The notes under the pieces were generated by a model that was given only the letters and a program-made list of their open reading frames with translations, did no database searches and had not been told where the DNA came from. This document shows positions 1,819 to 28,837 of a stretch of DNA of 41,330 bases, in pieces (within the stretch, counting starts at the first letter, position 1; the number at the start of each line of letters is the position of its first letter). Location: the NCBI GenBank assembly GCA_015233135.1, contig JADFYH010000026.1, positions 1,092-42,421 on the forward strand, given 5' to 3'. The position numbers were made by a program, and so were the translations under genes. The DNA comes from Deltaproteobacteria bacterium (lineage in GTDB: Bacteria; UBA10199; JADFYH01).

Positions 1819-3375
1819 CTAAGCTTTCACCTTCCTCAAAATTCTCGCCCCACCCAACACTAAAATTGACGCAATCCAATATTCATACCTCACCCTGCCC
1901 TCTCCTACCTTAGGAGAGGGAGATAACGAGCACCCTCCACTGCTAGAAGCTGCTGCGGCAGGGGCTACTGTTACGCTTTGGTCGGTGGTCACGATTGAAG
2001 CTGGGTTACCGACCGCATTGTAAGTGCCATCGCTGGCGGCAAAGCGGTAGCTGTGGCTGCCTTCGGCTAGGGTGTGGGTGGCGTGGTAGATTTTGCCGTC
2101 GGTGTAAGTCGTGTCGGTGGAATCGGCTGCAGTCATGTCTATCGCTGTGCCATCGACGGTTACCGTGATTGAGCTTGGTGGCTCGTTATCGGCATCGGTG
2201 TAGGTGACTTGAAAGACGCCTGTTGTGGAATCTACCAAGGGGCTTGAGAGTGTGGGTTCTTTGTTGCCCAGTAATGTTACAATTTTATTGCTACCAGTGA
2301 CGGAGATGAGGAGGTCGGCGTGGCCATCGTGATTGAAGTCGTCGGTGACGATTTTGAAGGGGTTAGTACCCAGGTTTTGTGTGAAGATGGGAGTGGTGAC
2401 AAAAGTGCCATCCCCGTTACCTGCGTAAACTTGCAGCACACCTTGGTTTACAGCCCCATCTGCGTTGCAGATTACTGCAACATCATTTTTAGAGTCGGCA
2501 TTGAAATCGGCAATCACTAAATTATAGGGGCCATTGCAGACAGAGAGTGTTGTTGCTGTAAAGGCCGTACCAGTACCGTCGTTGAGGAGAATACTCAGGG
2601 TGTCATCATCGTGGTTCGCTACAATTAAATCTTGGGAAGTATTGTTATCTAACAAGCCGGCCTGAATACCTTGGGGGTTGTGGCCGACATCTAGGATGGC
2701 GATTTTGGGATAGGGGGGAATTGAATCACCAGCCCTACCGGAATAGATAAAAACTTTGTTTGTAGCAGTAGTCACAGCTACATCAGAATAGGCATCGGCA
2801 TTAAAGTTTGAGACAGTTAATTTATTTAGAGTAACTACAGTCCCTTCTTCGTCTCTAAATGATGGAAAAGCACCAGCACCATTGCCTTGGAAAAAGACAA
2901 GGAGATTATCTTCAATAGAAATAATATCCAAATTACTATCATTATTAACATCTGCATCAAAGATATCATTATTATGACTAGTACTCACATTAGTAGAATT
3001 AAAATGCACTTTGCCATTAGAGATATTCTGATAAGTCAATAAATCTGCATCAGTTAAATTTGAATAATAATAAATATCTAAATGGCTATCTTTATTAAAA
3101 TCTCCTGCAATTAAGTCATAGGGCGAAACAATAGTAGAGGTGTTTGGGTCTGCAATTAAAGTATAGGCTCCATTTGCCCCCAAACTCATTTGAGAAATCA
3201 CATTTTGAGTAGGAAATACAACAAAGGCATCCAAGCTTGTTGAGCCTGTGAAATTCCCAACCAAAACTCCTTGAGGAGCATGATCAAAAGCAGTATCGCT
3301 ATAACGAGTAAAATAGTTTGGTGCAGCAAAAGCATTCGAGGCTGTAAAAACTAACAAAAGAATTATTCTTTTCAT
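1819..3375 (-). CDS. Secreted FG-GAP/VCBS-repeat protein with C-terminal membrane anchor
   Basis: 518 residues. There is a signal peptide at the N-terminus (MKRIILLLVFTASNAFA), then repeated FG-GAP/VCBS units recognisable as DFNxDxxxD motifs (GDFNKDSHLDIYY, SNFNADAYSDVAV, ADFNADSKNDVAV, DDFNHDGHADLLI). These probably form a calcium-binding beta-propeller. A Big/cadherin-like segment (residues ~375-470) precedes the tail. The tail has a Cys motif (SSSGGCSL), a REP-derived insertion (SPSPKVGEGRVR), one hydrophobic helix (WIASILVLGGARIL) and basic residues. This order resembles Cys-motif/TM/Arg C-terminal sorting signals such as MYXO-CTERM or JDVT-CTERM; the exact class is uncertain. The start has a strong AAGGAGA site. 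Likely surface-exposed; ligand unknown. Confidence 0.82.
   Translation of the reverse strand: MKRIILLLVFTASNAFAAPNYFTRYSDTAFDHAPQGVLVGNFTGSTSLDAFVVFPTQNVISQMSLGANGAYTLIADPNTSTIVSPYDLIAGDFNKDSHLDIYYYSNLTDADLLTYQNISNGKVHFNSTNVSTSHNNDIFDADVNNDSNLDIISIEDNLLVFFQGNGAGAFPSFRDEEGTVVTLNKLTVSNFNADAYSDVAVTTATNKVFIYSGRAGDSIPPYPKIAILDVGHNPQGIQAGLLDNNTSQDLIVANHDDDTLSILLNDGTGTAFTATTLSVCNGPYNLVIADFNADSKNDVAVICNADGAVNQGVLQVYAGNGDGTFVTTPIFTQNLGTNPFKIVTDDFNHDGHADLLISVTGSNKIVTLLGNKEPTLSSPLVDSTTGVFQVTYTDADNEPPSSITVTVDGTAIDMTAADSTDTTYTDGKIYHATHTLAEGSHSYRFAASDGTYNAVGNPASIVTTDQSVTVAPAAAASSSGGCSLSPSPKVGEGRVRYEYWIASILVLGGARILRKVKA
1886..1921. repeat. REP-like palindrome inside the FG-GAP gene
   Basis: The copy TACCTCACCCTGCCC...TAGGAGAGGGAGA lies in frame inside the FG-GAP reading frame. 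It encodes about 12 residues between the GGCSL motif and the C-terminal membrane helix. Confidence 0.8.
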
Positions 3376-13831: not shown

Positions 13832-14446
13832 TTACTTAAGAGTCATCTGTGGATCACTCAAATTAACCCCCTTGATCATTTGGGGATCGCTGAGGTTTAT
13901 TTTGTTGAGCATCTGAGGATCACTGAAAGCTGAGGCTTTTACTATGCCTAAATTCTTTCCATTGATCATCTGCGGGTCACTCAAGTTCACACCCTTAATC
14001 ATCTGGGGGTCACTGAGATTCACTCCCTTGATCATTTGAGGATCACTGAGAGCTGATGGGGCTTTTCTCACCACGCTTAAATTCTTTACATTAATCATTT
14101 GGGGATCACTCAAATTAATCCCCTTGACGTTTACTCCCTTGATCATTTGAGGGTCACTGAGAGCCGAGGCCTTCACCATTTCAAGGTCATTTGAATTCAC
14201 TTCGTTAGTTATTTGGGGATCACTCGAATCATTCTCATTGTAGACCTCTTTTAATTCAACCTCTTCCCTCTGGATAGCCAAGACAGTTTTTAACTGTTCC
14301 AGGCAACTTTGTAATTGCGCTACTTCCAGCTGATCTGAAGCTTGAAAGCAGACCTCATCCACCTCACCCGATTCTGCTGCTTGCAAAGAACCCGCTGCAA
14401 GCAAAAAAAAGACAAAGACAGCACCTATGAAAAAAGATCCTTTCAT
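13832..14446 (-). CDS. Secreted SDPQ-repeat protein (unrecognised family)
   Basis: 204 residues from the ATG at 14446, chosen because AGGGGG lies 5-6 bases upstream and a clean signal peptide follows (MKGSFFIGAVFVFFLLAAGS). The mature N-terminus has two Cys about 17 residues apart in a helical, acidic segment (VCFQASDQLE..., SCLEQLKTVLAIQREEVELK). The rest is nine copies of an SDPQ unit whose best-conserved form is the 11-residue LSDPQMIKGVN, some spaced by 8-10 extra residues (NLSVVRKAPSA, NLGIVKASA). I know no family with this repeat. It could be a short solenoid or a substrate with repeated sites (S-D-P, K). It lies between two kinase genes and 175 bp downstream of the kinase-FGE gene on the same strand. 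Confidence 0.8.
   Translation of the reverse strand: MKGSFFIGAVFVFFLLAAGSLQAAESGEVDEVCFQASDQLEVAQLQSCLEQLKTVLAIQREEVELKEVYNENDSSDPQITNEVNSNDLEMVKASALSDPQMIKGVNVKGINLSDPQMINVKNLSVVRKAPSALSDPQMIKGVNLSDPQMIKGVNLSDPQMINGKNLGIVKASAFSDPQMLNKINLSDPQMIKGVNLSDPQMTLK
13835..14227. repeat. Coding repeats of ~33 bp in the SDPQ protein gene
   Basis: On the plus strand the phrase GATCATTTGGGGATCACT, or close variants, recurs nine times. In the tightest parts the period is 33 bp. The DNA-level similarity is as high as the protein-level similarity, which suggests recent expansion by slippage or unequal recombination. Confidence 0.85.
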
Positions 14447-14553
14447 GTCGCCCCCTTTTTTTAACCCAGGAACATCCAAGGTTATTCCTAAGTCTAGGTG
14501 CAATGGGCATACCAGTAAGGGCCTATCAAAATTGTTATAGGGTAACAAAATGT

Positions 14554-14577
14554 GCTGGGGCAATTTTCAAGCCCAGC
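14554..14577. terminator. GC-rich hairpin after the kinase-FGE gene
   Basis: GCTGGGGC-AATTTTCAA-GCCCAGC, a 7-8 bp stem with one bulge, lies 45 bp past the stop of the kinase-FGE gene. The A7 run follows it on the plus strand, so on the minus strand the T run precedes the stem. It is therefore not a classical Rho-independent terminator for the gene it follows. Confidence 0.3.
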
Positions 14578-14621: not shown

Positions 14622-17411
14622 CTACAATGCTAAAGAAAGTCTAAAGGCCCCGTTGTAAAGCAGGGCGGCGGGGCGGCGGGCGCTCCAGGTTCTTGAAGCG
14701 GGGCGAAAATAATTCCCCCAGGGTGTTCGCACACTGCCTCCCACCATCATGACACAACCTTTTTCCCCCAGGCTACGAGTGAACTGCCTCACATTTCCAA
14801 CTACATCGAAAACTCCATAAAGGGAAACATCTGCATAACTATCTTCCTGAATAGGATGGGTTCCTACTGCCACAGGATAAGTGGTTTTTCTGCGATCGGC
14901 GTGAATTGCCCGGCTATTCATTTTATTGGGATCAAAACGGTAACCCCAGGGATAAATCCATTGAAAACCATTTCTGGCAACCAGTTCATATTCGTCCGCA
15001 CTCATAACCTGGTATTTTTTACCCGGGGCAAGGCTGTCCATTCTCCCTCTCCAAGCGGCATAAGCCTCTGCAGCATCCGCTGTAATTGAATGAATGGGTT
15101 GCTCATTAAAAACAGGTTCCTCACTTTGGTAGTGAGTGGACCCATGAGGGTCTAACAAGCTCAGTCGTTTTTGCCGCAGATCAAAGCGCAGTTTCCAGTG
15201 AAAAGGAGCCGTTTCAAGAAACTGGGAAAGCTGTGCCCAAACATCCTCTCCTGTCCAAGGCGTTTCCAAACGCGGAGTAGCTCGGGGAATAAAATTCAAA
15301 AGAGCTTCCAACTCTGCCTGGGCATCAAAGTCTAGTTGCCGTTGAAGAAGAAGATTCACATCTGCAACAAGCGAAGCGATAAATTTTTTATATTGGCTTA
15401 CGGTCACCGGAGTTCGAGACAGGGCAAAGCTCTTATGCAAACAGGCGCGGAGAGGATAACTGAACACCGCCCAAGGCTCTCCATCGTGATAAAAATCGTG
15501 CCCTAGAAAAGCCTTCCCCCTGGGAATCACAACAAGATCCGAAGCAAGAGAAGCTTCTCGATAGAGTTCAAGTTCCAAGTCAAGCCTTGCAGGCAATCCA
15601 GCTTCTTCCACTTCTAAAGCTCCCGCCACATCGGCATAGGTTAAATGAAAGGGTTGATCAATCGCAACAAAGCCTTCTCCTTCAAAATGAAGTACATAAT
15701 ATCCCGCTGGAAGTCTTATGCCTTGCAGCTTTCCCAGGCTTCCTGTCCAAACAGTTCGTGTTCCCTGAAAATCTGGATAAACCCTTTTGATCTCAATCTG
15801 TGAACGGAAATTTTGAAGCGCCGGGCTATCTCTCACAATCTTTAACTGTACGCTGGCTCCCATTTCCTGCACGGCCCGACTTTTATAAGAAGGAAGGGGC
15901 AATCCTGAAACTTCTTCCCAATCATATTTCTGCACCAGTCGTCTCAGGTGCTCCCGTTCTGCATGAGACAGCCGATCCTCCTCTTCGACCAAACGAGAAA
16001 AAGCGAGAGTTGTAATAATTTCTCTCGCCCTCTTGGGCATGGCTTCTCCCCCAAAACTAATTTCAAGATAGTCGATCAAATCTCTCCCCCCCTGATGCCA
16101 AGATTCTTTCAAGTCTTTCAATTCATAGAGGGGATCATTGTATCTTTCCCAAAACCCTGGAGTAACTTGTTCATCATAGCTAAAATTTTCCCACGTTTTA
16201 TGAAAGGCAATGGCCTTCTCGTCGTGAGCCCTGCGCAGCTCCAAGAGTTCATCCAGGCGTGCCTCGGCGTAACACATGAGCACCGCCTCACGGAGTTCCA
16301 AGGCACTGGAATATCGTTTTGCAGCGTCCGGATGAAAGGCCTTGCGGGCAACTTCATCCAGCTTATCCAGGATTCTGGAATTGCGATAATCCTTTTCAGG
16401 AAAGAGGTCGCGAAAATGAGGGACAGCTTCATAGTTTGCCGGAGTCACCAACCACAACATTTTTGGATTTCCATACACATCCAGCGCCAGCACCTGTCTT
16501 GCTTCACCCTTTGAGAGATCTCCTGTCCGATAGGAGGCATAGGCAGGAAAGCCTCCACTCATCCATTCGTAAAGGATACAGCCCAAGGCAAAGACATCGG
16601 TTTGAGCAGGGTTTTTCATCCCTATCCCCAAGGGTGTTTCAGGGGCAATATAACCCGGAGTGCCCGTAAAGCTCCCGGGTGCTGTCATTCGACGGCTACT
16701 TACGGCTATTCGAGAGATCCGAGAATCCTCCGAACTACCATCATTATTGCGCCGAGCCTCTTCAAACCCGAGGCAAATCCCCCAATCGAGGGGGACCGCG
16801 TTACCATTCATCACTTGCACATTTTCAGGTTTTAAATCGCGATGAATAATGCCACGCTGATGGGCGGAATCAACGGCCAGACAAAGGCTGGCAAAGACCC
16901 CAATTTTTTTCAGAACCTCGTCGTCTGCAAACGAAGGGCTTCCATTCTCTGCTCTGAGAATGCTCTCCATATTCTTTCCCAACATTTTTTCCATGACGGA
17001 AATGGGAACCGCTTCGCCTGAATTAAGTGTTACCTCAAAAAAGTCATAAACAGCCACCGTATAATGATTGTCCAGCCTTGCTGCTACCTTGATTTCATGA
17101 CGAATTCTGTCGAGATATTTTTTATTACTTAATATTTCTACAGTAGGAACCTTGATCACCGCCAAACGCTCCAGCTTGGTGTCGTAGACTTCAAAGACAT
17201 CGCTGCTTCCCCCCTGACCCAGCAGAGAAACAAGGATATAACGATCGTCAGGACCCACTCGAGTAGCAGCAGGAATAGTCCCTTTTCTAAAGAGGACATT
17301 GTCTCTATCTAAATGAATGCTGTACCTAACAGACCTGTCGGTCATGGACACCATACCGGCGACAAGGGCACTACCGAGAGCAGAGGCTAAAAAAAAACAC
17401 CCGAGCAACAA
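14622..17411 (-). CDS. Serine/threonine kinase fused to a sulfatase-modifying-factor (FGE) domain
   Basis: 929 residues if started at the TTG at 17411; ATG codons at 17354 or 17345 are alternatives, and none has a strong ribosome-binding site. A hydrophobic N-terminal segment (LLGCFFLASALGSALVAGMV) precedes a Hanks kinase: Gly loop LLGQGGSSDVFEV (~58), Lys in AVIKVP (~87), HRDLKPEN (~188), DWG in place of DFG, GTPGYIAPE. The middle (~400-640) is unassigned, partly PEGA-like. Residues ~645-929 form an FGE-sulfatase/SUMF1 domain: IPRGKAFLGHDFYHDGE, LSRTPVTVSQYKKF, AAEAYAAWRGR, VFDVVGNVRQFTRS, GGSVRTPWG, GAFRLSLAL. Kinase-FGE fusions are known in bacteria with many STPKs. The 5' end overlaps the 3' end of the giant gene by 25 bp across a T9 run (see findings). 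Confidence 0.88.
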   Translation of the reverse strand: MLLGCFFLASALGSALVAGMVSMTDRSVRYSIHLDRDNVLFRKGTIPAATRVGPDDRYILVSLLGQGGSSDVFEVYDTKLERLAVIKVPTVEILSNKKYLDRIRHEIKVAARLDNHYTVAVYDFFEVTLNSGEAVPISVMEKMLGKNMESILRAENGSPSFADDEVLKKIGVFASLCLAVDSAHQRGIIHRDLKPENVQVMNGNAVPLDWGICLGFEEARRNNDGSSEDSRISRIAVSSRRMTAPGSFTGTPGYIAPETPLGIGMKNPAQTDVFALGCILYEWMSGGFPAYASYRTGDLSKGEARQVLALDVYGNPKMLWLVTPANYEAVPHFRDLFPEKDYRNSRILDKLDEVARKAFHPDAAKRYSSALELREAVLMCYAEARLDELLELRRAHDEKAIAFHKTWENFSYDEQVTPGFWERYNDPLYELKDLKESWHQGGRDLIDYLEISFGGEAMPKRAREIITTLAFSRLVEEEDRLSHAEREHLRRLVQKYDWEEVSGLPLPSYKSRAVQEMGASVQLKIVRDSPALQNFRSQIEIKRVYPDFQGTRTVWTGSLGKLQGIRLPAGYYVLHFEGEGFVAIDQPFHLTYADVAGALEVEEAGLPARLDLELELYREASLASDLVVIPRGKAFLGHDFYHDGEPWAVFSYPLRACLHKSFALSRTPVTVSQYKKFIASLVADVNLLLQRQLDFDAQAELEALLNFIPRATPRLETPWTGEDVWAQLSQFLETAPFHWKLRFDLRQKRLSLLDPHGSTHYQSEEPVFNEQPIHSITADAAEAYAAWRGRMDSLAPGKKYQVMSADEYELVARNGFQWIYPWGYRFDPNKMNSRAIHADRRKTTYPVAVGTHPIQEDSYADVSLYGVFDVVGNVRQFTRSLGEKGCVMMVGGSVRTPWGNYFRPASRTWSARRPAALLYNGAFRLSLAL

Positions 17412-20400
17412 GAAGAGAGATGCCCGGCCACAAAACTAGCGGCCTCGGAGACCGAAGAAGCGAGGTAAGTGGCAAGTCCAACGGTGAGTGGAAGCATTAT
17501 CCCCCCCACTGTACGAAGAAACCCCGTGCGCACGATGCGTGCAGGAGCAGCTGGGCCAGCGCCGGGAGGAGTAGATCCAGGGCTTGTTGGGTCGACAATA
17601 TTGAACTTAAGCGGTCTGCCATTCACAGTAAGTACAAAAGAATCACCTAATTCAAAACTATGTTCCCCGTGTTGATGATGGAAAAGAGGGATCGCTCTGT
17701 CCTCTTCACCACCTTTCAAAAAGACTCCTTCTCTTACCGCCCAAGGATTAACCGCCCTCAATTTGTAGACCACCGCACTGTCTTGCATTACAGCAAGCAA
17801 CTCAAAGTTTTGGAGTGTTTCTCTCTCTGAATGATCTTCTTCCACAAATTCGCTTAAGCGTTTGGTTTCCCCTGTGGGAACCACACAATCAATCCCCTTA
17901 GAGCATTTTACGGCTTGAGGGGTATAGAGATCATAGAAAACACCTGCCACCGACAGTTTTAAGATATCCCCATCCGAAAATGAAACTGGGGATTGCTTTA
18001 ACTCTTCTAAGCTTACCCTTCTGTTTTTTCCATTTGGAGATTGTATACAGACAAAAAGATGATCTTCTATATTTTTTATAAAGGGGTATGGATGTGGAGC
18101 CAGGCTTAATTGGTAAGTCTTGCCAGTGCGTTTAAGGCTGACCCGTCCCTCAAGAGTAGAGGCCATCCCATCAATTACTCCTACGCCTCTTAAGCCCCCA
18201 TCTCCCCACTCTTCCCCTCTCAACTTATCAAGACCGACTTCTCCATTCTCTTCTAACTTAAGATCTACTCGAGTATGGCCAGGGAAAATGCTTTCAATCA
18301 TTCGCCCCTCTACCAATATATAAACCTTGCTTACTTCTCCTGTAAACTCTTCCCCCGCAACACCCAACCCACCCATATCTTTTATACCCGCTCCCTTTTC
18401 ATTTAAGAGATGAACCTCAACTCTTCCATCCATATATTTTAAAATGATGGGGATATCTGTTCTTACCCCACCTTCACGCTGAATATAATAATGCACAGCA
18501 TATGGATTAGCAGTCTGATAAAATGATGATATTCGTGAAATAGAAAATTCATTGCCTTCAGGGAAATCACCTCCTCTACCGAGAGAACACGCTTGATTTA
18601 ATGGAACCTGAACTCTATGATGTCGATCCCCATAATCCACAACGCCTGAATCCACCACAGCCAGGAGATCCCTTGCCAGAGCCACATCAAAGACGCCAGT
18701 CTTTCCTACTTGGCCGATGACCCGAGCAAAAACATCCGTCCCTGCTTCGATGAGTCGGCTTAATTGGGTACTGACAGCAGCAACAGTAGCTACTGAATCG
18801 CCCTCTGCAGCACCACCCCCCTTCGGCCCACTGTTTTCTTCTACCAGCCCCCCCAGACAAATTCTCACTCGCTCACCTCGAATCACCAGATCGAATTTGT
18901 TTCCTTCCAGCAGCTGGACAATTCGGGGTTTTAAGGGATAGACCAATTCTTGATCATCAATGCGACAAATCACTTGAGGCCTTTCCCCTGCAAATTGAGG
19001 ATCAAAGCCCTCTCTAAAGCGCAAGGCGCAAGCCTTTCCATTTTCTGTTGTAGAAATTTCCAATTGTTTCAAAATAGCCTCATGCCTGTGCCCAGGAATC
19101 ACCTGATCCAAAGTCACACGGGCACCAGGCAACAGCGTAAAATTGTAAACGGGAATATCTTCTGAGGCTGCCGGTACTAGATGCTCGGCAGCCGCGGAAA
19201 GTCTCGCCGACAGTTCCTCTAAGCCTCTTCGCAAAGCAGCTGCGATATCAACACCTTTATTCCACAATTGCCTTACCCCTGCAGCCATTACATCTCTAGG
19301 CAACTGATTCGCGCGCGCTATCACTTCCTGCAAGGCTTCCAATCTTCGCTCGGGCACACGCCTTTTATAGGCGGCCTTGGCGCTTCTTATTTCCTCAATC
19401 AACTTCGCTCGTAACTCAGAGGGCTGGATCACCTGGTTTACAGAAGCCACCGCAAGGGCACGCTCCATTCCATTGGCGGCATTGTAAATGGCGGCCTCTT
19501 TGTTGACGTACTCTTCAAGAATGGGTTGCAACACAAGCCCTCGCTGCACGTCTTCCAGCTTGGCCTCTCCTTTTTTCACACGCTCATCTGCCTCTGCCTG
19601 GGCACGAATGGCATCGGTCACCAAACCCTGCCAATTTTTCATACGTGCATCCCGTTCGGCAGCCTTGAGTATTTCTCTTCCGTAAACCACCAGGGCAACT
19701 CCACGCCCATCCAGCACTTGTTCTCTGGCTCCTTCCAAAGCCAACACACGGAAGGCCTCCTGATCTTCAGGAGCAGCCAGTTGCCGATCGACCACCACTT
19801 TTCCACCGCCGGTACAGGCCCCAAGATTCACCATGACTTGAGGCCCCTCAAACAAGACATTGGCCGTTCCGTATTTGCCGCCGTTGGTCAATTGACGTTC
19901 CTGCATCGCAAGACCAATGGCCATAAAAACCAGATTGTCATAAAGATGAACCAAAGGAAGTCGCCCATCGGCCTTGCCAATGGCCCTCATAATTTTTGCA
20001 GAATCACTCGGCGCAAGCACCCCAGGTTGAAACACCAACATCACCGGCTGCCCGCCAATTTGAGCAATAGCCGCTACTGTTTTTGTAGCCATGGGTTCTT
20101 TGTTTTTAATTTTCAAGGCATCATTTTGAAGATGAAATTCTCCCTTGTAATCTTTCCATAAAAAGAGAGGGGGCGGGGCATCCTGATCGATTAAGGCTCG
20201 AAGGAAAGGAAGAAAATCTTCCTGGGGCATTGGAGCACCTAATTTTTTCATCAGGTCGCCAATGTTTCCCTGTTCAACACCATTCACCATCCACGGAGTT
20301 TGGGTCACATCGCGATCTACCGGATCTTTGCTGCGTCGTCTGCTCACAATCTGACCATTGCGTTCCACTGCCGTATAATAATGCAGCAGCAGTAATTGTT

Positions 20401-23400
20401 TGTGAGCCTCCAGTCGATTGGGTGCAAAAAGTTGCGCTTCACCATTAGGACCATGCACCCCGTTGTATCCGGCCATATCTTGAATGCCGCCCGGAAAGGT
20501 TCTTTTGACGATGCCAGGCAGTTGGGTCACCGAGGCAGTTGGATTTGCTGCGGCTGCAAAGGCTTGGGGGCCAGTGAGGGCCAGACTTCCACGAGGAGTC
20601 ATGATCACCACCCCACCGGTAGCCTCCGCGATGGCAGCAATCGAAATATCATAAGACATGATACCGATACTGAAATCATCCACCACAAAATTCATGCGTA
20701 CTCGGTGTTTACCAAGCTCTGCATTTTGCTTAATGCAATTTAAAACAATTTCTCTAAAGGTGGCACTCACCGCATCCAGCACCTCTACCCCGGAATCCCT
20801 GTCAATAAAGGCCCCGGCGGAGGCCACATGCCAATCGATATCCAAACCATTTTCTGCCGCATAGTGAATGGCCGCAATAATGCGCGCCGTTTCTTCATGG
20901 CCAATAGAGCCTTTGGAGGGGTCATGCGAGAGATCGCCAAGGATACTCAAACGGCGAACGGGAAAGCCCAGGCCCATGTCGTTTTCCATCAAACCTATCA
21001 CCACCCCCGCCTTGTTTCGTCCTATTTCTCTGGCTTGACCGTCGGCATTCACCGCAGGAACAAGTTGCCCCGGATGATTGTAATCAATTTTTCCTGTGGA
21101 TGGATTGATCGGTGTCGCACTGCCCTTCACCACATGTTCTAGATCCAGTTCCACGAAGCGGGTGTTCCCCTTAAATGCTCTAGGATGTTCTCTAGCCAAT
21201 GCACTGATGGCGGCATCCATGTGCATAGGCACATGATAGGCAAAGACACCCCCAGTCGCCTGAACTTTTCTAGCTCTCAATTCCACGGGTGTCGCCGTAC
21301 TCACCTTAGATTCGTCCAAAAACTTATAGGCAATCTCCCCGAGGGGCCTATTTGTTTTTGTCAGCGATGCAACTGTACTGGCATCACTCCAATTCACCAT
21401 GACTCTTTTCGACTGAAGCTCAGCCCCTGCTGCATTGGCAAACAAGGCCTCTTCAAGCGCTTTCACCTTCACTTCAAAACGATAGCGCGTAGGGTTGGTA
21501 ATCGTAATTAAAACCTCGCGATATTTATTGGAAGTTTCAGAAACCCTAATACGACCACGCACCACCACTTTTTCAAGATGAAGTTTTCTCAACAACTCCC
21601 AGTGCTGGGTGGCCAAGTTTTCAACATAAGCGACAGTCTCGTCATGAGTCATGTCCAATTCGGGAAGTATATTCATAAACAAGCGATTCCACTTCGCCGA
21701 TTCTTTCGCATTATCCGTCAACGATTGTTCCATCGCCCGAATACTTTTAACAAACAACTCCTCCAATTTTGGAATACCCACTACACCCTGTTCATTACGC
21801 AACACCTGGGCACGCCTCACCACCAAGTTTCCAAAAAGACGCACATCTCCCTTCACCTCTTTTTCTTTTCCCGAACCATAATACAAATGCACATCACGGT
21901 CTGAATTGACCTGATCACGTCTTAAATCAAAAAGAGAAAGGCGTTCAATTTCAATTAAACGATTGGCCGTGAAAGGCTGAAGAGATCTGAGATTAGTGGC
22001 TTCTACAAATTTTTGGGATAGGCCTTGGCCATTGGGTTCTCGAACGAAGGTATAATAAACAGGGTAAGCATTCCCCTCCGTAAAGGCAACCGTCACTCGG
22101 CGAAGATTGGACTCACTGACCCAGCTGGAATCGCTGTTCAAACTTTCGGCAAAGCTTTGCAGCCATTTTGCCTCCTCAAAGCCGGCAGGCTTCGCCATCA
22201 TCAATTCCACCACATTGCTGCCGCAATTTTTACAATCCGAGTTTCTCAGCTTCAAGGTGTGCCCAATATCATGCAAATCTTGGATAGCTTTTTCGGGGCT
22301 TGTTTTGACACGGGCAAAAGAACGTTGAATTCGTCTGGCATCCCCATTCCTGCCCTCCACTTTATAAAAGTTCACCACCAGGGCATCTGCATCCAGATGT
22401 TTTATGCTCTCCAGATGATGCCCACGAAATTCGCGCCGGGTTTGAATGTTTTCAGCCAGCTGTCGAGCTTTGGGACTCAAAGCCTTGTTATTATAAAGTG
22501 CGGTCAAAGGCGTGGTGAGTGATTCTGCAAGAGTTACAATCTGTTTTACAAACTGCCTTTTTTGCTCCATATCAAAACCCTTGGCAATCAACTCAAAAAG
22601 ATGACCCAAATTTTTGAGAGATTGGGTTCTGTCTTTTTCATCCAGGCCTCTGCTAAAATTCTCAAACAGTTGTACAGCCAGATTTGCATTATTTTCTGCG
22701 GATTCCCCGGCAAACAACCTCACACGCGAGGCATTTTCAAAACCCCAGGTGGCGACGCCTTCCGGAGAAAGGCTGATATCCACTTTTAATCGTGCAGGGC
22801 TTCCACCCTTCGCTGCCCCAGCAACTTCATATTCCCAGTTATAAAGCCCCTGACGAGCCGCAAGCAAAGGCACGGCTTCCGATTGAAAATAATCACTATT
22901 AAATCCTCCCGAAAAATATTCGATGGAAGGGGGCTGAAACAACTCGGAATGTCTGTTATAATGAACGCAGTAAACCATCTCCCCGGCAGGCAAACCCGGA
23001 ACAGGATCAGAGGCCACATAAACTGTTTTATGCCCCGAGGCCTGACGAATACGAATATTTTTTAGATCACCGATACTGTTGAGCTGGAAAGTAATTTCAT
23101 TCTTTGGATCTCGCTGAAGCCTTGCCAACTCTTCTCTGAATGCCCTGTTTTGCTGAAAAAATTTGGCCAGGGTTCCTAGTAAAGGATCCGAAGTTCTGAG
23201 GGGATCGGAAATAAAAGCTTCGAGGCGTTGTTGCAGCAGATCAATATTTTTGGCAGTGGGAAGTCTAATATTCGCCACACATTCCAGGTGTAAGCTGACC
23301 GCTGATCTTAATTTCAAGGCTCTTTTTTCTTTGTAACGATAACTGCTGCGATCTTCAAATTCTTCACGGGGAATTGGGCGCCCTCTGCTTTGCAAGGCCG

Positions 23401-26400
23401 CTTTTCCCAAGGCTTTCTCGAGGCCATTGCTTGCGTAATGATTATCGTATTCTCCGGTTCGCACCGCTTCGCGCGCCAGAAATCTCAGTTGGCCCAAAAT
23501 ATCCGCCTTGGCTTTTTCAGACTCAAAGACGGTTTTGGATAAGGCCTGAGAGGCTCTTTGAAGCACCTGCAATCTTTTTCCGGGATGATAAACCACAAGC
23601 TTGGCAAACATGGCGTCGAAGAAACCGAAAATTCTATCGCCACTCGCGATAGAGGTCTCCACATGAATTCCTTCGCTCTCAGGAAATTCCAAGCGATTCA
23701 CTGTTCCGGGGGAAGGGGCATTTCTACCGCGATAAAGACTGTTGGGATCTGCTGCTTTCAAACGAACTTCCACCGCTGACCCATGATTTTCAATACTCTC
23801 CTGAAGGTAAGAAAGGGGAAGACCTCGACCAATGTCGATAGCATCTGAAATAAGATCGGCCGTTTCGTCCTCTCGTCCGAGAATTCGGGTCACGAGTTCC
23901 GTCACGCGATGTTCCACCTGAATTCGCGCGTTCACCTCCATGGCAAAAAAATCACCGGTATCGGGATCCACCATGAATTCTACCGTTCCATGTCCGGTAT
24001 AATTCACGGCCTGCGCGGCCTTGCGCACCGCTTCATACATCTTTTCTCTTAAACCAGGGAAACGAGCAAAAATTTCAGCCGGATAAATTTCAATGAGTTT
24101 TTGATCCCCTTCCTGAAGCGTACATTCTCTTTCACTGAGTATTCCTGTGTTTCCAAAACGGTCGCGAATAATTTGAAATTCCACATGCTGAAAACGGGGA
24201 ATAAACCGTTCTGCCAAAATTCTTTTGCTTTTACCTTCTTCCTGACAGGTTCCAAATTCATTCACTAATTCTTTTAGAGTATAGACCGTCTGCTGACCTT
24301 TTCCACCACCGCCTCCGACAGCTTTGAGGCGAGCCCCAAAGGCCAAGGCAATCTCTTCGAAACTTTCATTTCTCTCAATGTTTGAGAGCACCGCCAAAAC
24401 CCTTTGCCTATCTTCAGATTTAAAAAATCCAATCTCCAAAAGTTCTCTCGCTAGCGACAAGGCATTCTCGTGTCCCACCTGAGTCCCTTGCACAACGGGA
24501 ATCCCCGCTTCGATAAAGGCCTGCTTGGCTACATCTTTATCGCCCGCACGAAGCATACTTTTCACAGAAGGGCCAAATAAAATCAACCCCTCCCCATTTA
24601 ATGCCGTCACCAGCTCATGGGCTTCCGATTTGTAACCGTAGCCTGGATGCACCGCCTGACAATTGGAACGCCTGGCTTCCAGGGCGATATGATTTACATC
24701 TTGATACAAATTATTGATCAAATTCTCATCCGTAACGACAGGGTCACCACTACTGATCAAATGTTCCACCTGCCCTGCAGCATCCATTTCTTGCCTCAAG
24801 GCCTCGGATAACTTCGCAGGTGCTTCTGCCACCACCACAGGAACAAAGCCCTGGTGTTGACGAATCGCACGAACAGCATCGGCCGTTCCAAAGCTGGTAT
24901 CAATGGGGGTAGTGGAAGTGTATTTAAAATCTTTTGCTCTTTTTTTGCTGTCGGACTCCGGAGCACGCAGACGCACAAACACCCTGGCCTCGGCGCCAAA
25001 CTCCTCAACGGCCTTTCTCACCCAGGCATGATTCGCCTCGGCTTCATGCACCATGATCACCGGAGTCATTCCCTGCTTATGTACACTGCGCGCAATACGC
25101 ACGGCAATTTCACCGCGATGGGGGATAAACACGCGTTCAACATTAGGATTGGTTTGGATATTTAAACCTGGATTTAAGATCGCCTGAAGATCATCCAGGC
25201 GTTGAAACAGAACCTTTCTTTGTTTGGCGTCCAGACCTTTATCTGTAATACCGGCCAGGGCACGGCGGGCATTATCGTTTGCCGCCTTGGTTTTAAAATT
25301 TTGTTTTTTAAACCTTTCCCAAGCAGTGGAGGCACTCTGGCTTGTATCGGTGAGTCGCGTATAAATCTTTCTCTTGAGGGCTAGGGCTTCCCCTCTGACA
25401 GCTGAGGCAGAGGATCCCCTACGCCCCGCAGCCTGCAGCCCTTCCACGCCTTCCCCTTCCACTCGAGACGCCGCGTCCACTCCGGAAATTTCCAAACCCA
25501 GTTGCGCCGCTGCACCTTCTGGAGAATTTAATTTTGTTGCTGTCAGGAGTTCTGCAGGCACTGCAGGATTTTCCAAACCCAGAGGATTTTTTGGATCGGA
25601 TTTTCCATCCGAGAAAAAGCCTTGGGAAGTTCCTTCATCTCTACCTGAACCTGAACCCGCCGCATCTTTTGCAGTCACCCGCGCACGCGCTGCAGACGCC
25701 AATCTCTCGGGCTCTGCTTGGGCATGGCGATTCAGCGATTCTTGATCTCGAACTCTCACTTGGGCCGCTAAGGCTTGTTGGATGGCCAAGCCCTCTCTCC
25801 CTTGAGGGGAGAGAGTTGGAGAGAGGGCGACCGCGGGTGCACTCGGGGTCACCCTCTCCCTGCCCTCTCCCGTCGAGGGAGAGGGGAAAACTAAATTAGA
25901 ATGTATAGAAAAAGTTTCTGCAGAGGGATAAGAAGCTCGACCCTCTCTCCCTTGAGGGGAGAGAGTTGGAGAGAGGGGGGTCGCAGGTGCACTCGAGATC
26001 CCCCTCTCCCTGTCCTCTCCCGTCGAGGGAGAGGGGAAAACTAAATTAGAATGTATAGAAAAAGTTTCTGCGGAGGGATAAGAAGCTCGACCCTCTCTCC
26101 CTTGAGGGGAGAGAGTTGGAGAGAGGGGGGTCGCGGGTGCACTCGAGATCCCCCTCTCCCTGTCCTCTCCCATCGTAGAATTATCAATTGCATCCACTGG
26201 CTCTCTCTCTCCTCCCTGCCGCCCCTGAAAATCCCTCACCTCTCCCAAAACGCCTTGCACTGCCTCTAAATCCCGATCCAAGAAAGGTCTCAAATAAAAA
26301 GCCAGCTGCTCCGGATTTCCCTCCGACAAGGCTCGAATCCCTGCCAGGGTATGTGCCTCAACGCCCAGTTCCAAGGCATTCTGCAGCAGGCGCAAGCGCT

Positions 26401-28837
26401 CTGAACTGGAGAGGCCTAAATCCGCAATCGATCTTATCAAGCCCTGGGCATTCAAATTTCGTGTCGCTTCATAAGTAAACGCCTCCATTTGCAGATCGCG
26501 CAGATCAAAGCCCGCAGGCCTTTGTTCGCCTGAACTCCGATAAGCTGGGTGCTCTGTTTCAGAACCATGAAGATGAAAAAGTTCTCTCAGGTCCACTTCG
26601 TGCCCATTCATTCGTTCGCGCACTTCGGCCAATAGTTCTTCGTGGCTGCAACGTCGCGAAAGATCGATTTCACCCGTCAAATAATGCCATAAACCTTCAT
26701 GCGAAGAAGCCTGTGCAGCAGGCACTGGGCGCCGCTCCAAAGCCAGCAGCAATTCCGTCATCCTCAAACCTCTTTCGCCAAAAGGAGGAATAGCAAGCTC
26801 ACGCAGAAAAGGCTGAAAACGTCGAGCCTCTGATAATAGATGATGCCGCCCTTCCACCCCATGCATCCAGTGCCCCGCTCCTGGAACCCCTTCAATCAAG
26901 CCTCCGCCGGCCTTCATCTTGAGATCTTCAATCACATTCCCCAAAAACCCTAAACTCCAGGAAGGTTTCCTCGCTTCTTCTTCCAATCCTAAAAATTGAT
27001 TCACCGTCCCCGAGGCATAAAAACTCCCAGGACCTGTCAGCAAATAATCAAGCACCCATAAAGAACGATTGCTCAACGCCCTCATCGCAGAAGACGAGAC
27101 ATTCTCAAACAAAAGCGTACGCAGCGGACGAGCTAAGGCCTTGAACGCTGCCCCCCAGCCATGACAGGTGGCAAAGGTAATCATCATGCTGGCAAAACCT
27201 TTTGCCCCTGCATAAGGCGTCACTTCATGGCTTAAAAAATTTCTATAGGCATCTTGATGCAGAGGGTTCTGGCTGTCCGCATACGCAAAGGCCCCGCCTA
27301 CTCCCATTCCCGCCACCGTAAAACCCGCGGCCTCTGCCGCACAGGGAAGTAAAAATCCAAGGGCCGCCCCCAAACGGGCAATGCCCATGGCCTTGGTGGC
27401 CACCGACAGGCCGCGACCCATCGCAAAGGGAATCAGAAAATGGCTGTAGGTCTGTAAGACATTGTGCCCCAGGCCGGGAATGAAGTTTTGCAACTCCCCA
27501 AGCACGGTATTGGCTTGGGCCTTGAGTTCCAGAGTGGCTCGTAAGCCCGCAGGCAAGCTCCCCAGGCTGTGGCGTTGTTCCAAAAGTCCGGCCAGCTGGA
27601 TGCCGCTCTGTGTATAGCCCCGGTCTTGAGTTCCCAGGCGCAAGGCCAAATCGTAAATCTGCGCATCCACTTCGCCTTCCCCCACCCTCAGCGTCTCTTC
27701 ATTGGCGGCCACAAAATCGATGAGGAGTTGAGCCACGGTACGCGTATCCGAGCTGTCGTGAAAGAAGTGAGCCCGCATCCAATTTTCTAGGGCAAAAGAT
27801 TCCGGAGCCGTGTGAGATAAAAAATCCTGAACCTGCACAAAACCTAGAGCCGCCCGAGTATCCGTCAAAACAGAAGCTAGGGCCTCGCTGAGCGTGGCAT
27901 GTTCGTGATGTTCCAAATATTGCGATACGGCTTGAAGATATGCCTGAATTTCGTGATCAAGCCCTTCTTGCGAAGCATGATGTTCTTGAACTTGTTTCTG
28001 CGCCCATTCGGAGAGTACGGTCTGCAGCACTCCTACCAAAAGCCCGCGCCGAGAGAGTTGCAGGGATCCTTCGAGTTGATCTCTCAGTTCGGTGGCCAAC
28101 ACGTTCTCGGGATGGGCCTGTACCTTGGCTCGCAGGCGACTTAGGGCCGCTTCAATGTGTTGGGGTGTTTGCTCGGAGGCGTAAAGGCCTCTCAAGATAG
28201 GCAGAATGGACGCCAGTTGCGCCAGTCGAGTCTGATCTTCGGCACTACAAAAGCGGGCCCCTCGGCCCCGATGGGCTAAAGGGTTTTCTGAAACATAGCC
28301 TGCCACTCGATCCAGATGCTGCAAGGCCTTCTCATGATCCCCGGCCTGGGCCCAAACACCCGCCATGGCCCGTTCTGCCGAGGCCAAGGCCCAGGGGCTG
28401 GTCCAGCTTTGAGTCTCGCGTTCAAATCGAGCCAAAAGTTCTGTCACCCGAGCCGTTCGCCCCACAGCGGCCAAACGCGTAGCGGCTTCTATCAGGGCAT
28501 TCAGCTGGGTTTGGTTGAGACGAGATCTGCCTTGCAGATTAATCCCCGAAAGCGATTGATCTACCGCGACTTCTACTCCATGAATTTGCTCCGCGCTGGG
28601 ACCTTCGTGTTCTGTCTGGGCAGGGGTTTCAGAGGCTAATAGCCGCTGGCCATTCAAACGCCTCCATAAATTTTGAGTATTGTGTTGGAGTGCCATCCCC
28701 ACTTCACGAGCCAAATTGGGCGCTGGAGTAGGATTTGCGGTATCAGTGCCTGAATGAGCATGAGGTACTGTAACTGGCCCCACCGTTGGAATATGAGGAA
28801 TGGCGTTTTCAGACGAAGGAATACGTGCTGAGGTCAT
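17387..28837 (-). CDS. Giant protein with eukaryotic-type acetyl-CoA-carboxylase core (BC, central and carboxyltransferase domains)
   Basis: 3816 residues; ATG at 28837 behind AAGGGAG. Residues ~1-460 are alpha-helical, TPR-like. Residues ~465-560 are hydrophobic (ARLGAALGFLLPCAAEAAGF) and probably membrane-associated. At ~890-1015 there are 150-bp REP-derived tandem repeats. Residues ~1230-1760 are a biotin carboxylase: HRGEIAVRIARSV, HPGYGYKSE, LKAVGGGGGKGQ, QKLIE, AMEVNARIQVEH, PSPGTV. Residues ~2000-2520 resemble the ACC central domain (IEIERLSLFDL, DVHLYYG, NRLFMNILPELDM). Residues ~2520-3155 are an ACC-like carboxyltransferase (GVVIGLMENDMG, LALTGPQAF, GACTGGGKVVVD). Residues ~3160-3780 are beta-rich with GDxFxLxVxG units, then a hydrophobic end. 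No MKM biotin-attachment motif is visible. The typical eukaryotic ACC is ~2200-2350 residues; the core here is ~1925. Enzyme activity is unproven. Confidence 0.8.
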   Translation of the reverse strand: MTSARIPSSENAIPHIPTVGPVTVPHAHSGTDTANPTPAPNLAREVGMALQHNTQNLWRRLNGQRLLASETPAQTEHEGPSAEQIHGVEVAVDQSLSGINLQGRSRLNQTQLNALIEAATRLAAVGRTARVTELLARFERETQSWTSPWALASAERAMAGVWAQAGDHEKALQHLDRVAGYVSENPLAHRGRGARFCSAEDQTRLAQLASILPILRGLYASEQTPQHIEAALSRLRAKVQAHPENVLATELRDQLEGSLQLSRRGLLVGVLQTVLSEWAQKQVQEHHASQEGLDHEIQAYLQAVSQYLEHHEHATLSEALASVLTDTRAALGFVQVQDFLSHTAPESFALENWMRAHFFHDSSDTRTVAQLLIDFVAANEETLRVGEGEVDAQIYDLALRLGTQDRGYTQSGIQLAGLLEQRHSLGSLPAGLRATLELKAQANTVLGELQNFIPGLGHNVLQTYSHFLIPFAMGRGLSVATKAMGIARLGAALGFLLPCAAEAAGFTVAGMGVGGAFAYADSQNPLHQDAYRNFLSHEVTPYAGAKGFASMMITFATCHGWGAAFKALARPLRTLLFENVSSSAMRALSNRSLWVLDYLLTGPGSFYASGTVNQFLGLEEEARKPSWSLGFLGNVIEDLKMKAGGGLIEGVPGAGHWMHGVEGRHHLLSEARRFQPFLRELAIPPFGERGLRMTELLLALERRPVPAAQASSHEGLWHYLTGEIDLSRRCSHEELLAEVRERMNGHEVDLRELFHLHGSETEHPAYRSSGEQRPAGFDLRDLQMEAFTYEATRNLNAQGLIRSIADLGLSSSERLRLLQNALELGVEAHTLAGIRALSEGNPEQLAFYLRPFLDRDLEAVQGVLGEVRDFQGRQGGEREPVDAIDNSTMGEDRERGISSAPATPLSPTLSPQGREGRASYPSAETFSIHSNLVFPSPSTGEDRERGISSAPATPLSPTLSPQGREGRASYPSAETFSIHSNLVFPSPSTGEGRERVTPSAPAVALSPTLSPQGREGLAIQQALAAQVRVRDQESLNRHAQAEPERLASAARARVTAKDAAGSGSGRDEGTSQGFFSDGKSDPKNPLGLENPAVPAELLTATKLNSPEGAAAQLGLEISGVDAASRVEGEGVEGLQAAGRRGSSASAVRGEALALKRKIYTRLTDTSQSASTAWERFKKQNFKTKAANDNARRALAGITDKGLDAKQRKVLFQRLDDLQAILNPGLNIQTNPNVERVFIPHRGEIAVRIARSVHKQGMTPVIMVHEAEANHAWVRKAVEEFGAEARVFVRLRAPESDSKKRAKDFKYTSTTPIDTSFGTADAVRAIRQHQGFVPVVVAEAPAKLSEALRQEMDAAGQVEHLISSGDPVVTDENLINNLYQDVNHIALEARRSNCQAVHPGYGYKSEAHELVTALNGEGLILFGPSVKSMLRAGDKDVAKQAFIEAGIPVVQGTQVGHENALSLARELLEIGFFKSEDRQRVLAVLSNIERNESFEEIALAFGARLKAVGGGGGKGQQTVYTLKELVNEFGTCQEEGKSKRILAERFIPRFQHVEFQIIRDRFGNTGILSERECTLQEGDQKLIEIYPAEIFARFPGLREKMYEAVRKAAQAVNYTGHGTVEFMVDPDTGDFFAMEVNARIQVEHRVTELVTRILGREDETADLISDAIDIGRGLPLSYLQESIENHGSAVEVRLKAADPNSLYRGRNAPSPGTVNRLEFPESEGIHVETSIASGDRIFGFFDAMFAKLVVYHPGKRLQVLQRASQALSKTVFESEKAKADILGQLRFLAREAVRTGEYDNHYASNGLEKALGKAALQSRGRPIPREEFEDRSSYRYKEKRALKLRSAVSLHLECVANIRLPTAKNIDLLQQRLEAFISDPLRTSDPLLGTLAKFFQQNRAFREELARLQRDPKNEITFQLNSIGDLKNIRIRQASGHKTVYVASDPVPGLPAGEMVYCVHYNRHSELFQPPSIEYFSGGFNSDYFQSEAVPLLAARQGLYNWEYEVAGAAKGGSPARLKVDISLSPEGVATWGFENASRVRLFAGESAENNANLAVQLFENFSRGLDEKDRTQSLKNLGHLFELIAKGFDMEQKRQFVKQIVTLAESLTTPLTALYNNKALSPKARQLAENIQTRREFRGHHLESIKHLDADALVVNFYKVEGRNGDARRIQRSFARVKTSPEKAIQDLHDIGHTLKLRNSDCKNCGSNVVELMMAKPAGFEEAKWLQSFAESLNSDSSWVSESNLRRVTVAFTEGNAYPVYYTFVREPNGQGLSQKFVEATNLRSLQPFTANRLIEIERLSLFDLRRDQVNSDRDVHLYYGSGKEKEVKGDVRLFGNLVVRRAQVLRNEQGVVGIPKLEELFVKSIRAMEQSLTDNAKESAKWNRLFMNILPELDMTHDETVAYVENLATQHWELLRKLHLEKVVVRGRIRVSETSNKYREVLITITNPTRYRFEVKVKALEEALFANAAGAELQSKRVMVNWSDASTVASLTKTNRPLGEIAYKFLDESKVSTATPVELRARKVQATGGVFAYHVPMHMDAAISALAREHPRAFKGNTRFVELDLEHVVKGSATPINPSTGKIDYNHPGQLVPAVNADGQAREIGRNKAGVVIGLMENDMGLGFPVRRLSILGDLSHDPSKGSIGHEETARIIAAIHYAAENGLDIDWHVASAGAFIDRDSGVEVLDAVSATFREIVLNCIKQNAELGKHRVRMNFVVDDFSIGIMSYDISIAAIAEATGGVVIMTPRGSLALTGPQAFAAAANPTASVTQLPGIVKRTFPGGIQDMAGYNGVHGPNGEAQLFAPNRLEAHKQLLLLHYYTAVERNGQIVSRRRSKDPVDRDVTQTPWMVNGVEQGNIGDLMKKLGAPMPQEDFLPFLRALIDQDAPPPLFLWKDYKGEFHLQNDALKIKNKEPMATKTVAAIAQIGGQPVMLVFQPGVLAPSDSAKIMRAIGKADGRLPLVHLYDNLVFMAIGLAMQERQLTNGGKYGTANVLFEGPQVMVNLGACTGGGKVVVDRQLAAPEDQEAFRVLALEGAREQVLDGRGVALVVYGREILKAAERDARMKNWQGLVTDAIRAQAEADERVKKGEAKLEDVQRGLVLQPILEEYVNKEAAIYNAANGMERALAVASVNQVIQPSELRAKLIEEIRSAKAAYKRRVPERRLEALQEVIARANQLPRDVMAAGVRQLWNKGVDIAAALRRGLEELSARLSAAAEHLVPAASEDIPVYNFTLLPGARVTLDQVIPGHRHEAILKQLEISTTENGKACALRFREGFDPQFAGERPQVICRIDDQELVYPLKPRIVQLLEGNKFDLVIRGERVRICLGGLVEENSGPKGGGAAEGDSVATVAAVSTQLSRLIEAGTDVFARVIGQVGKTGVFDVALARDLLAVVDSGVVDYGDRHHRVQVPLNQACSLGRGGDFPEGNEFSISRISSFYQTANPYAVHYYIQREGGVRTDIPIILKYMDGRVEVHLLNEKGAGIKDMGGLGVAGEEFTGEVSKVYILVEGRMIESIFPGHTRVDLKLEENGEVGLDKLRGEEWGDGGLRGVGVIDGMASTLEGRVSLKRTGKTYQLSLAPHPYPFIKNIEDHLFVCIQSPNGKNRRVSLEELKQSPVSFSDGDILKLSVAGVFYDLYTPQAVKCSKGIDCVVPTGETKRLSEFVEEDHSERETLQNFELLAVMQDSAVVYKLRAVNPWAVREGVFLKGGEEDRAIPLFHHQHGEHSFELGDSFVLTVNGRPLKFNIVDPTSPGSTPPGAGPAAPARIVRTGFLRTVGGIMLPLTVGLATYLASSVSEAASFVAGHLSSCCSGVFF
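17389..17397 (-). promoter_or_regulatory. T9 homopolymer at the giant-gene stop: possible slippage site
   Basis: On the coding (minus) strand the giant frame reads GGT GTT TTT TTT TAG. The kinase-FGE frame is open through the same bases (TGT TTT TTT TTA GCC). One extra T (transcriptional slippage), or a -1 ribosomal shift, would join the frames into one ~4.7-thousand-residue protein. It may instead reflect a miscounted homopolymer in the assembly. Confidence 0.45.
25791..26172. repeat. Three near-identical 150-bp tandem units containing REP-like palindromes, inside the giant gene
   Basis: Units start at 25791, 25941 and 26091 (period exactly 150 bp = 50 codons); the third is partial. Each contains two palindromic blocks (CCCTCTCTCCCTTGAGGGGA... 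and CCCTCTCCCGTCGAGGGAGA...) and a shared AT-rich spacer. In the giant frame they encode a Ser/Pro/Arg-rich linker (LSPTLSPQGREG, VFPSPSTGE) between the helical N-terminal region and the carboxylase core. Copies differ at only a few positions, so the duplication is recent. Confidence 0.9.

Follow-up and report, generated by a model that had tools for sequence, protein, structure and literature searches.

A giant single-chain carboxylase relative without its own BCCP and a fungal-type fatty acid synthase with a common N-terminal module in a bacterial genome

Results

The window, i.e., the whole 41,330-nt stretch of contig JADFYH010000026.1 (Deltaproteobacteria bacterium) that we analyzed, carries on its minus strand a single open reading frame of 3816 amino acids (17387..28837), with an ATG start and no stop codon inside, as had originally been predicted. 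At its predicted TTG start, a protein kinase and FGE-sulfatase-domain ORF (14622-17411, minus strand) shares 25 bases with the end of the giant gene, and a further minus-strand ORF (13832-14563) contains many tandem SDPQMIKGVNL-like repeats. Rfam yielded no match.

Following the giant protein from its N terminus, a helical module at residues 101-746 (26600..28537, minus strand) precedes a linker with three tandem palindromic repeats (25791..26240, minus strand); these are 150 nt (50 codons) each, in frame, and encode LSPTLSPQGREG at residues 905, 955, and 1005. Other ORFs of this genome also encode SPxxxxGEGR-like peptides similar to the linker repeat. The biotin carboxylase (BC) domain (residues ~1232-1800; 23438..25144, minus strand) was identified by Pfam at residues 1370-1800 (Biotin_carb_N, 2.3e-17; CPSase_L_D2, 3.6e-33; Biotin_carb_C, 5.4e-12), by NCBIfam and PDB sequences, and by a check of its site residues; the motifs HPGYGYKSE, GGGGGKGQ, and EVNARIQVEH are at residues 1397, 1508, and 1634. 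Residues 1801-2174 (22316..23437, minus strand) then occupy the place of the BT domain and BCCP in other multidomain acetyl-CoA carboxylases (ACCs). The ACC central region (residues 2175-2457; 21467..22315, minus strand) matches ACC_central (PF08326) at an E value of 2.4e-28, across positions 424-701 of the 726-position profile only, with IEIERLSLFDL at residue 2295, VHLYYG at 2316, and NRLFMNILPELDM at 2384. The carboxyltransferase (CT) domain (residues ~2520-3160; 19358..21280, minus strand), assigned by Pfam, tree, and motifs, matches Carboxyl_trans (PF01039; 7.9e-13) at residues 2643-3156 and carries GACTGGGKVVVD at residue 3006. All of these BC, central, and CT scores lie above the Pfam cut-offs. 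The C-terminal ~656 residues (17390..19357, minus strand) had no match among the 46 genomes of the phylum and no convincing match among PDB sequences.

All seven motifs quoted in the original prediction are thus present in the order given, and Pfam bears out its single-chain BC-central-CT core. The membrane character also proposed for the N-terminal extension came out weak, with a single 19-residue segment (483-501) reaching a mean hydropathy of 1.6. The missing BT domain and BCCP, and the module held in common with a giant fatty acid synthase (FAS), had both been overlooked.

A profile search detected ACC_central in 10 of the 46 genomes of the window's phylum and, within a set of 385 relatives, in three further genomes from outside it. 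Full-length domain scans and alignment sorted the proteins into sets. Set I (G044, G038, and G042) displays the complete BC-BT-BCCP-central-CT layout, the BT (PF21385) match being weak in G042; set II (G015, G013, and G018) retains the BCCP; and set III has neither BCCP nor BT domain, comprising the window protein together with members from five genomes of another family, f7 (G012, G013, G014, G015, and G018). Four of the latter (G013, G014, G015, and G018) carry ACC_central twice, in a set II gene and in a set III gene.

Absence of the carrier was examined by several means. Pfam matched neither the BT domain (PF21385) nor the biotinyl domain (PF00364) in the window protein, and a motif scan of it for the E-x-M-K-M biotinyl-lysine motif was negative. 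A custom HMM trained on set I and set II BCCPs, the BCCP of another bacterial ACC, E. coli AccB, and both BCCPs encoded in this genome recovered true BCCPs in the searched loci at 1e-25 or better; at full sensitivity it found none in the scored set III proteins, the surrounding ORFs searched with them, or the FAS. For the gap where BT and BCCP would lie, Foldseek with a low-confidence AF2 model (pLDDT 56) placed ACC chains among its top matches, albeit weakly (E > 0.001). Pfam, custom HMM, motif scan, and fold search thus revealed no hidden BCCP in this gap or near the gene. By its sequence, the window protein is a multidomain ACC variant that lacks a BCCP; since BT and BCCP were both tested for and absent, we do not count it as a full member of that group. 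Among the papers found, none described a single-chain ACC without its own BCCP. Elsewhere in the genome are two stand-alone BCCPs, on contigs C30 and C9, each adjoining its own BC and CT; the C30 operon consists of a BC, a PCC-like CT, and a BCCP, and contig C6 carries an orphan CT gene. Besides the giant, PF01039 proteins in this genome are PCC/MCC-like CTs only.

We compared the BC site with 17 established site residues of E. coli biotin carboxylase (AccC). Sixteen of the 17 residues are kept in the window protein and in the four set III homologues scored with it, the G014 copy (short, incomplete ORFs) having been left out: in AccC numbering, K116, K159, GG165-166, E201, H209, Q233, K238, E276, E288, N290, R292, QVE294-296, and R338. 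The sole change, H236 to D1578 in the window protein, affects a position that also varies in BCCP-bearing relatives. A dead BC was rejected in view of the retained site residues, including R1692, the equivalent of R338. Between two close homologues, those in G015 and G013, BC and CT are under strong purifying selection, with Nei-Gojobori dN/dS values of 0.064 (BC), 0.114 (CT), 0.125 (AC), and 0.213 (BT/BCCP replacement). Because 16 of 17 site residues are kept and BC dN/dS is 0.064, the BC domain of the window protein is likely active.

The CT domain presents a more mixed picture, and may be active. It keeps putative oxyanion glycines (SIGIMSY at residue 2723 and GG at 3010), in motifs that build the oxyanion holes of known CTs, as in the yeast and PCC structures. 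On the substrate side, arginines are changed (SGAR to SGAF/SGAE; LRGG to TGGG/IVGG), the SGAR arginine being absent from set III and replaced by phenylalanine in the window protein; SGGAF is also found in the MCC-like CT of the same genome. Of the CTs compared, only that of the window protein has lost the GF motif. Loss of the R1954-type arginine was not accepted as proof of a dead CT: this arginine is also missing in BCCP-bearing relatives, both those of set II and those from other phyla, and the SGAR arginine is missing in this genome's MCC-like CT as well.

In the CT tree, in which human ACC1 is the sole eukaryotic row and E. coli AccD is not included, set III forms a clade with short bacterial multidomain ACCs and the G031 protein (support 100/99), sets I and II and human ACC1 make up the other clade (98/99), and the PCC/MCC-type CTs encoded by this genome fall in a separate one (100/100). 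Within its clade, the window CT has a long branch (1.1, vs 0.03-0.43). The BC tree, likewise with human ACC1 as its only eukaryotic row, places set III in one clade (100/100), apart from the human protein and set I. Identity of the window protein to human ACC1 is 28.6% for BC and 20.6% for CT, vs 30-32% for its CT against the short bacterial multidomain ACCs; "eukaryotic-type" as a statement of descent was therefore not upheld, and acquisition of the gene horizontally from a eukaryote was rejected on the CT tree. Two outcomes had been named beforehand as speaking against a giant carboxylase of this kind, i.e., no significant ACC_central match, or a CT grouped with ordinary bacterial AccD/PccB; neither was obtained, because the central match is significant (2.4e-28) and the CT falls outside the PCC/MCC clade in a tree without E. 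coli AccD. The G031 protein (L044, 5480-13382) is a multidomain ACC that has a BCCP and ends in a biotin protein ligase domain; another biotin ligase gene overlaps it.

The same genome (G000) encodes a 5652-aa fungal-type type I FAS (C6:45548-62506; L069/L070) in which all fungal-type domains are present (SAT, Fas1 helical, meander, DH, MAT, ACP, KR, and KS), followed by a 147-aa AcpS-like ORF. It is the genome's only detected ketoacyl synthase and carries ~1780 extra N-terminal residues. Within these, residues 657-1327 are homologous to residues 101-746 of the window protein (hhalign, 29% identity over 622 columns, 7e-29; BLAST, 1.7e-29), and a genome search with window residues 1-879 matched the window protein and the FAS only, with no third protein. 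An AF2 model of the module, of low overall confidence (pLDDT 47), shows regularly paired helices in the first ~160 residues; Foldseek with this model gave no firm fold assignment. The ACC and FAS genes sit on different contigs.

In family f7, the BCCP-bearing set II gene of G015 (L048) adjoins a fungal-type FAS gene, and the BCCP-less set III gene adjoins KS- and MaoC-bearing proteins, the KS retaining its Cys-His-His residues; on these grounds, these carboxylase genes travel with FAS-type genes. By alignment, f7 genomes (G012-G015 and G018) also have an N-terminal module, of ~430 residues, which each genome carries on no fewer than 34-40 large proteins (up to 124 candidate carriers), including ACC, FAS, KS, and MaoC proteins; given this number of carriers, it is not FAS-specific. 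With hhalign, this module showed no homology to the G000 module (probability at most about 2%). A 1736-aa protein of G012 (L039, 10452-15659) contains two ketoacyl-synthase-like stretches (VGACATG and ACSAACASG).

Discussion

We tentatively favor, at somewhat less than an even chance, a model in which the BCCP-less carboxylase works with a biotinylated BCCP encoded as a separate protein and makes malonyl-CoA for the giant FAS, their common module co-placing the two. Here, catalytic activity, use of a BCCP in trans, the substrate, and contact with the FAS are what we infer rather than observe. A multidomain ACC relative would have lost its built-in BT domain and BCCP. Its BC domain would carboxylate the biotin of a stand-alone BCCP, from the C30 or C9 operon, with ATP and bicarbonate; the carboxylated carrier would then move to the CT domain of the giant, which would in turn carboxylate a short acyl-CoA. 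The N-terminal modules would hold carboxylase and FAS together, such that malonyl-CoA is made beside its user. That the two are joined in one physical assembly by N-terminal modules paralogous to each other, the biotinylated carrier shuttling to the carboxylase as a protein of its own, would amount to a carboxylase-synthase assembly line not described before, and we consider this stronger proposal rather unlikely. In favor of the model we count the retained BC site residues, the low dN/dS of BC and CT in close homologues, the absence of a BCCP from the scored set III proteins alongside two free BCCPs in the genome, the module common only to the FAS, the FAS as the sole ketoacyl synthase hit, and the FAS-type neighbors of the f7 carboxylase genes. 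Against it we count the long branch of the window CT and its loss of the GF motif and SGAR arginine, the location of the ACC and FAS genes on different contigs, the possibility that the C30 operon alone supplies malonyl-CoA, and the widespread, non-FAS-specific modules of f7.

Since the window CT has lost residues that its relatives keep, the main rival is a CT-impaired scaffold or regulator, unlikely as we judge it to be, in which the carboxylase fold is retained for assembly with the FAS or as an ATP or acyl-CoA sensor and malonyl-CoA comes from the C30 operon. The missing BCCP, the degenerate features of the window CT (no GF motif, no SGAR arginine, long branch), and a complete alternative carboxylase in the genome would all suit such a role; however, the BC site residues are intact in all five proteins scored, dN/dS between close homologues is 0.06 for BC and 0.11 for CT, the putative oxyanion glycines of the CT are kept, and the KS adjoining f7 homologues retains its catalytic residues. 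The same partial degeneracy of the CT next to an intact BC, together with the orphan CT gene on C6, might instead indicate that the giant merely carboxylates BCCP for another CT (C30, C9, or C6) while its own CT is idle; this is very improbable, as C30 and C9 possess their own BC and the CT is under purifying selection in f7.

The substrate-side arginine changes (SGAR to SGAF/SGAE; LRGG to TGGG/IVGG), along with the recurrence of SGGAF in the genome's MCC-like CT, could also reflect an altered CT pocket, i.e., a carboxylase that takes its BCCP in trans and acts on an acyl-CoA other than acetyl-CoA, for a pathway other than the FAS. We regard this as distinctly unlikely, given that within this genome the module is common only to the FAS. 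Finally, the tandem repeat in the linker might raise suspicion of an assembly or gene-calling artefact, whether a chimera of unrelated ORFs or a BCCP lost by error; this is extremely improbable, as the 3816 codons form a single open frame on one 42-kb contig and the BC-central-CT order without BCCP recurs in homologues from other genomes.

A 2019 paper (PMC6491548) describes actinobacterial single-chain ACCs that have a central region, e.g., SACE_4237 of Saccharopolyspora erythraea, a multidomain ACC of about 200 kDa with BT and BCCP that is an active homodimer (PMC6491548). The single-chain BC-central-CT layout is therefore not new in itself; unusual in the window protein are the lack of BT and BCCP, the grouping of its CT with short bacterial multidomain ACCs, and the module it has in common with the FAS. 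Compared by description, not by sequence, the window protein resembles SACE_4237 in joining BC, central region, and CT in one bacterial chain, and differs from it in lacking BT and BCCP and in having extensions of ~1200 residues at the N terminus and ~650 at the C terminus; its CT clusters with 1.8-1.9-kaa bacterial proteins (G309, G173, and G220) of a size and layout resembling SACE_4237. With eukaryotic cytosolic ACCs (human ACC1 and yeast ACC) it has in common the BC-central-CT order and the ACC_central match; unlike them, it has no BT or BCCP, aligns to no more than the latter portion of the central profile, and has its CT in another clade. Heteromeric carboxylases such as E. coli AccABCD likewise have a separate BCCP, a likeness that would apply if the favored model holds, whereas BC and CT of the window protein are fused and its CT lies outside the PCC/MCC clade (100/100). 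To the fungal-type FAS I of the same genome it is linked by the N-terminal module, but it contains no FAS domain.

If active, the window protein would mean that a fused carboxylase can give up its swinging biotin domain, and, in a bacterium, would link the supply of malonyl-CoA structurally to a type I FAS of fungal type; we searched the literature for a comparable ACC/FAS system and obtained nothing relevant. Within one small phylum, near-eukaryotic ACCs (with up to 55% identity to human ACC1), short-bacterial-like ACCs, and BCCP-less ACCs occur together, so that phylogeny can directly test where the eukaryotic ACC and its central region came from. The near-eukaryotic ACCs belong to the same phylum and domain superfamily as the window protein and, in contrast to it, cluster with human ACC1 and possess every domain of the BC-BT-BCCP-central-CT order. 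Their loci are on C29 of G044 (L036, 1-7137, minus strand), C31 of G038 (L037), and C53 of G042 (L038); the G044 protein matches human ACC1 along nearly its whole length, with 55% identity in BC and 52% in CT.
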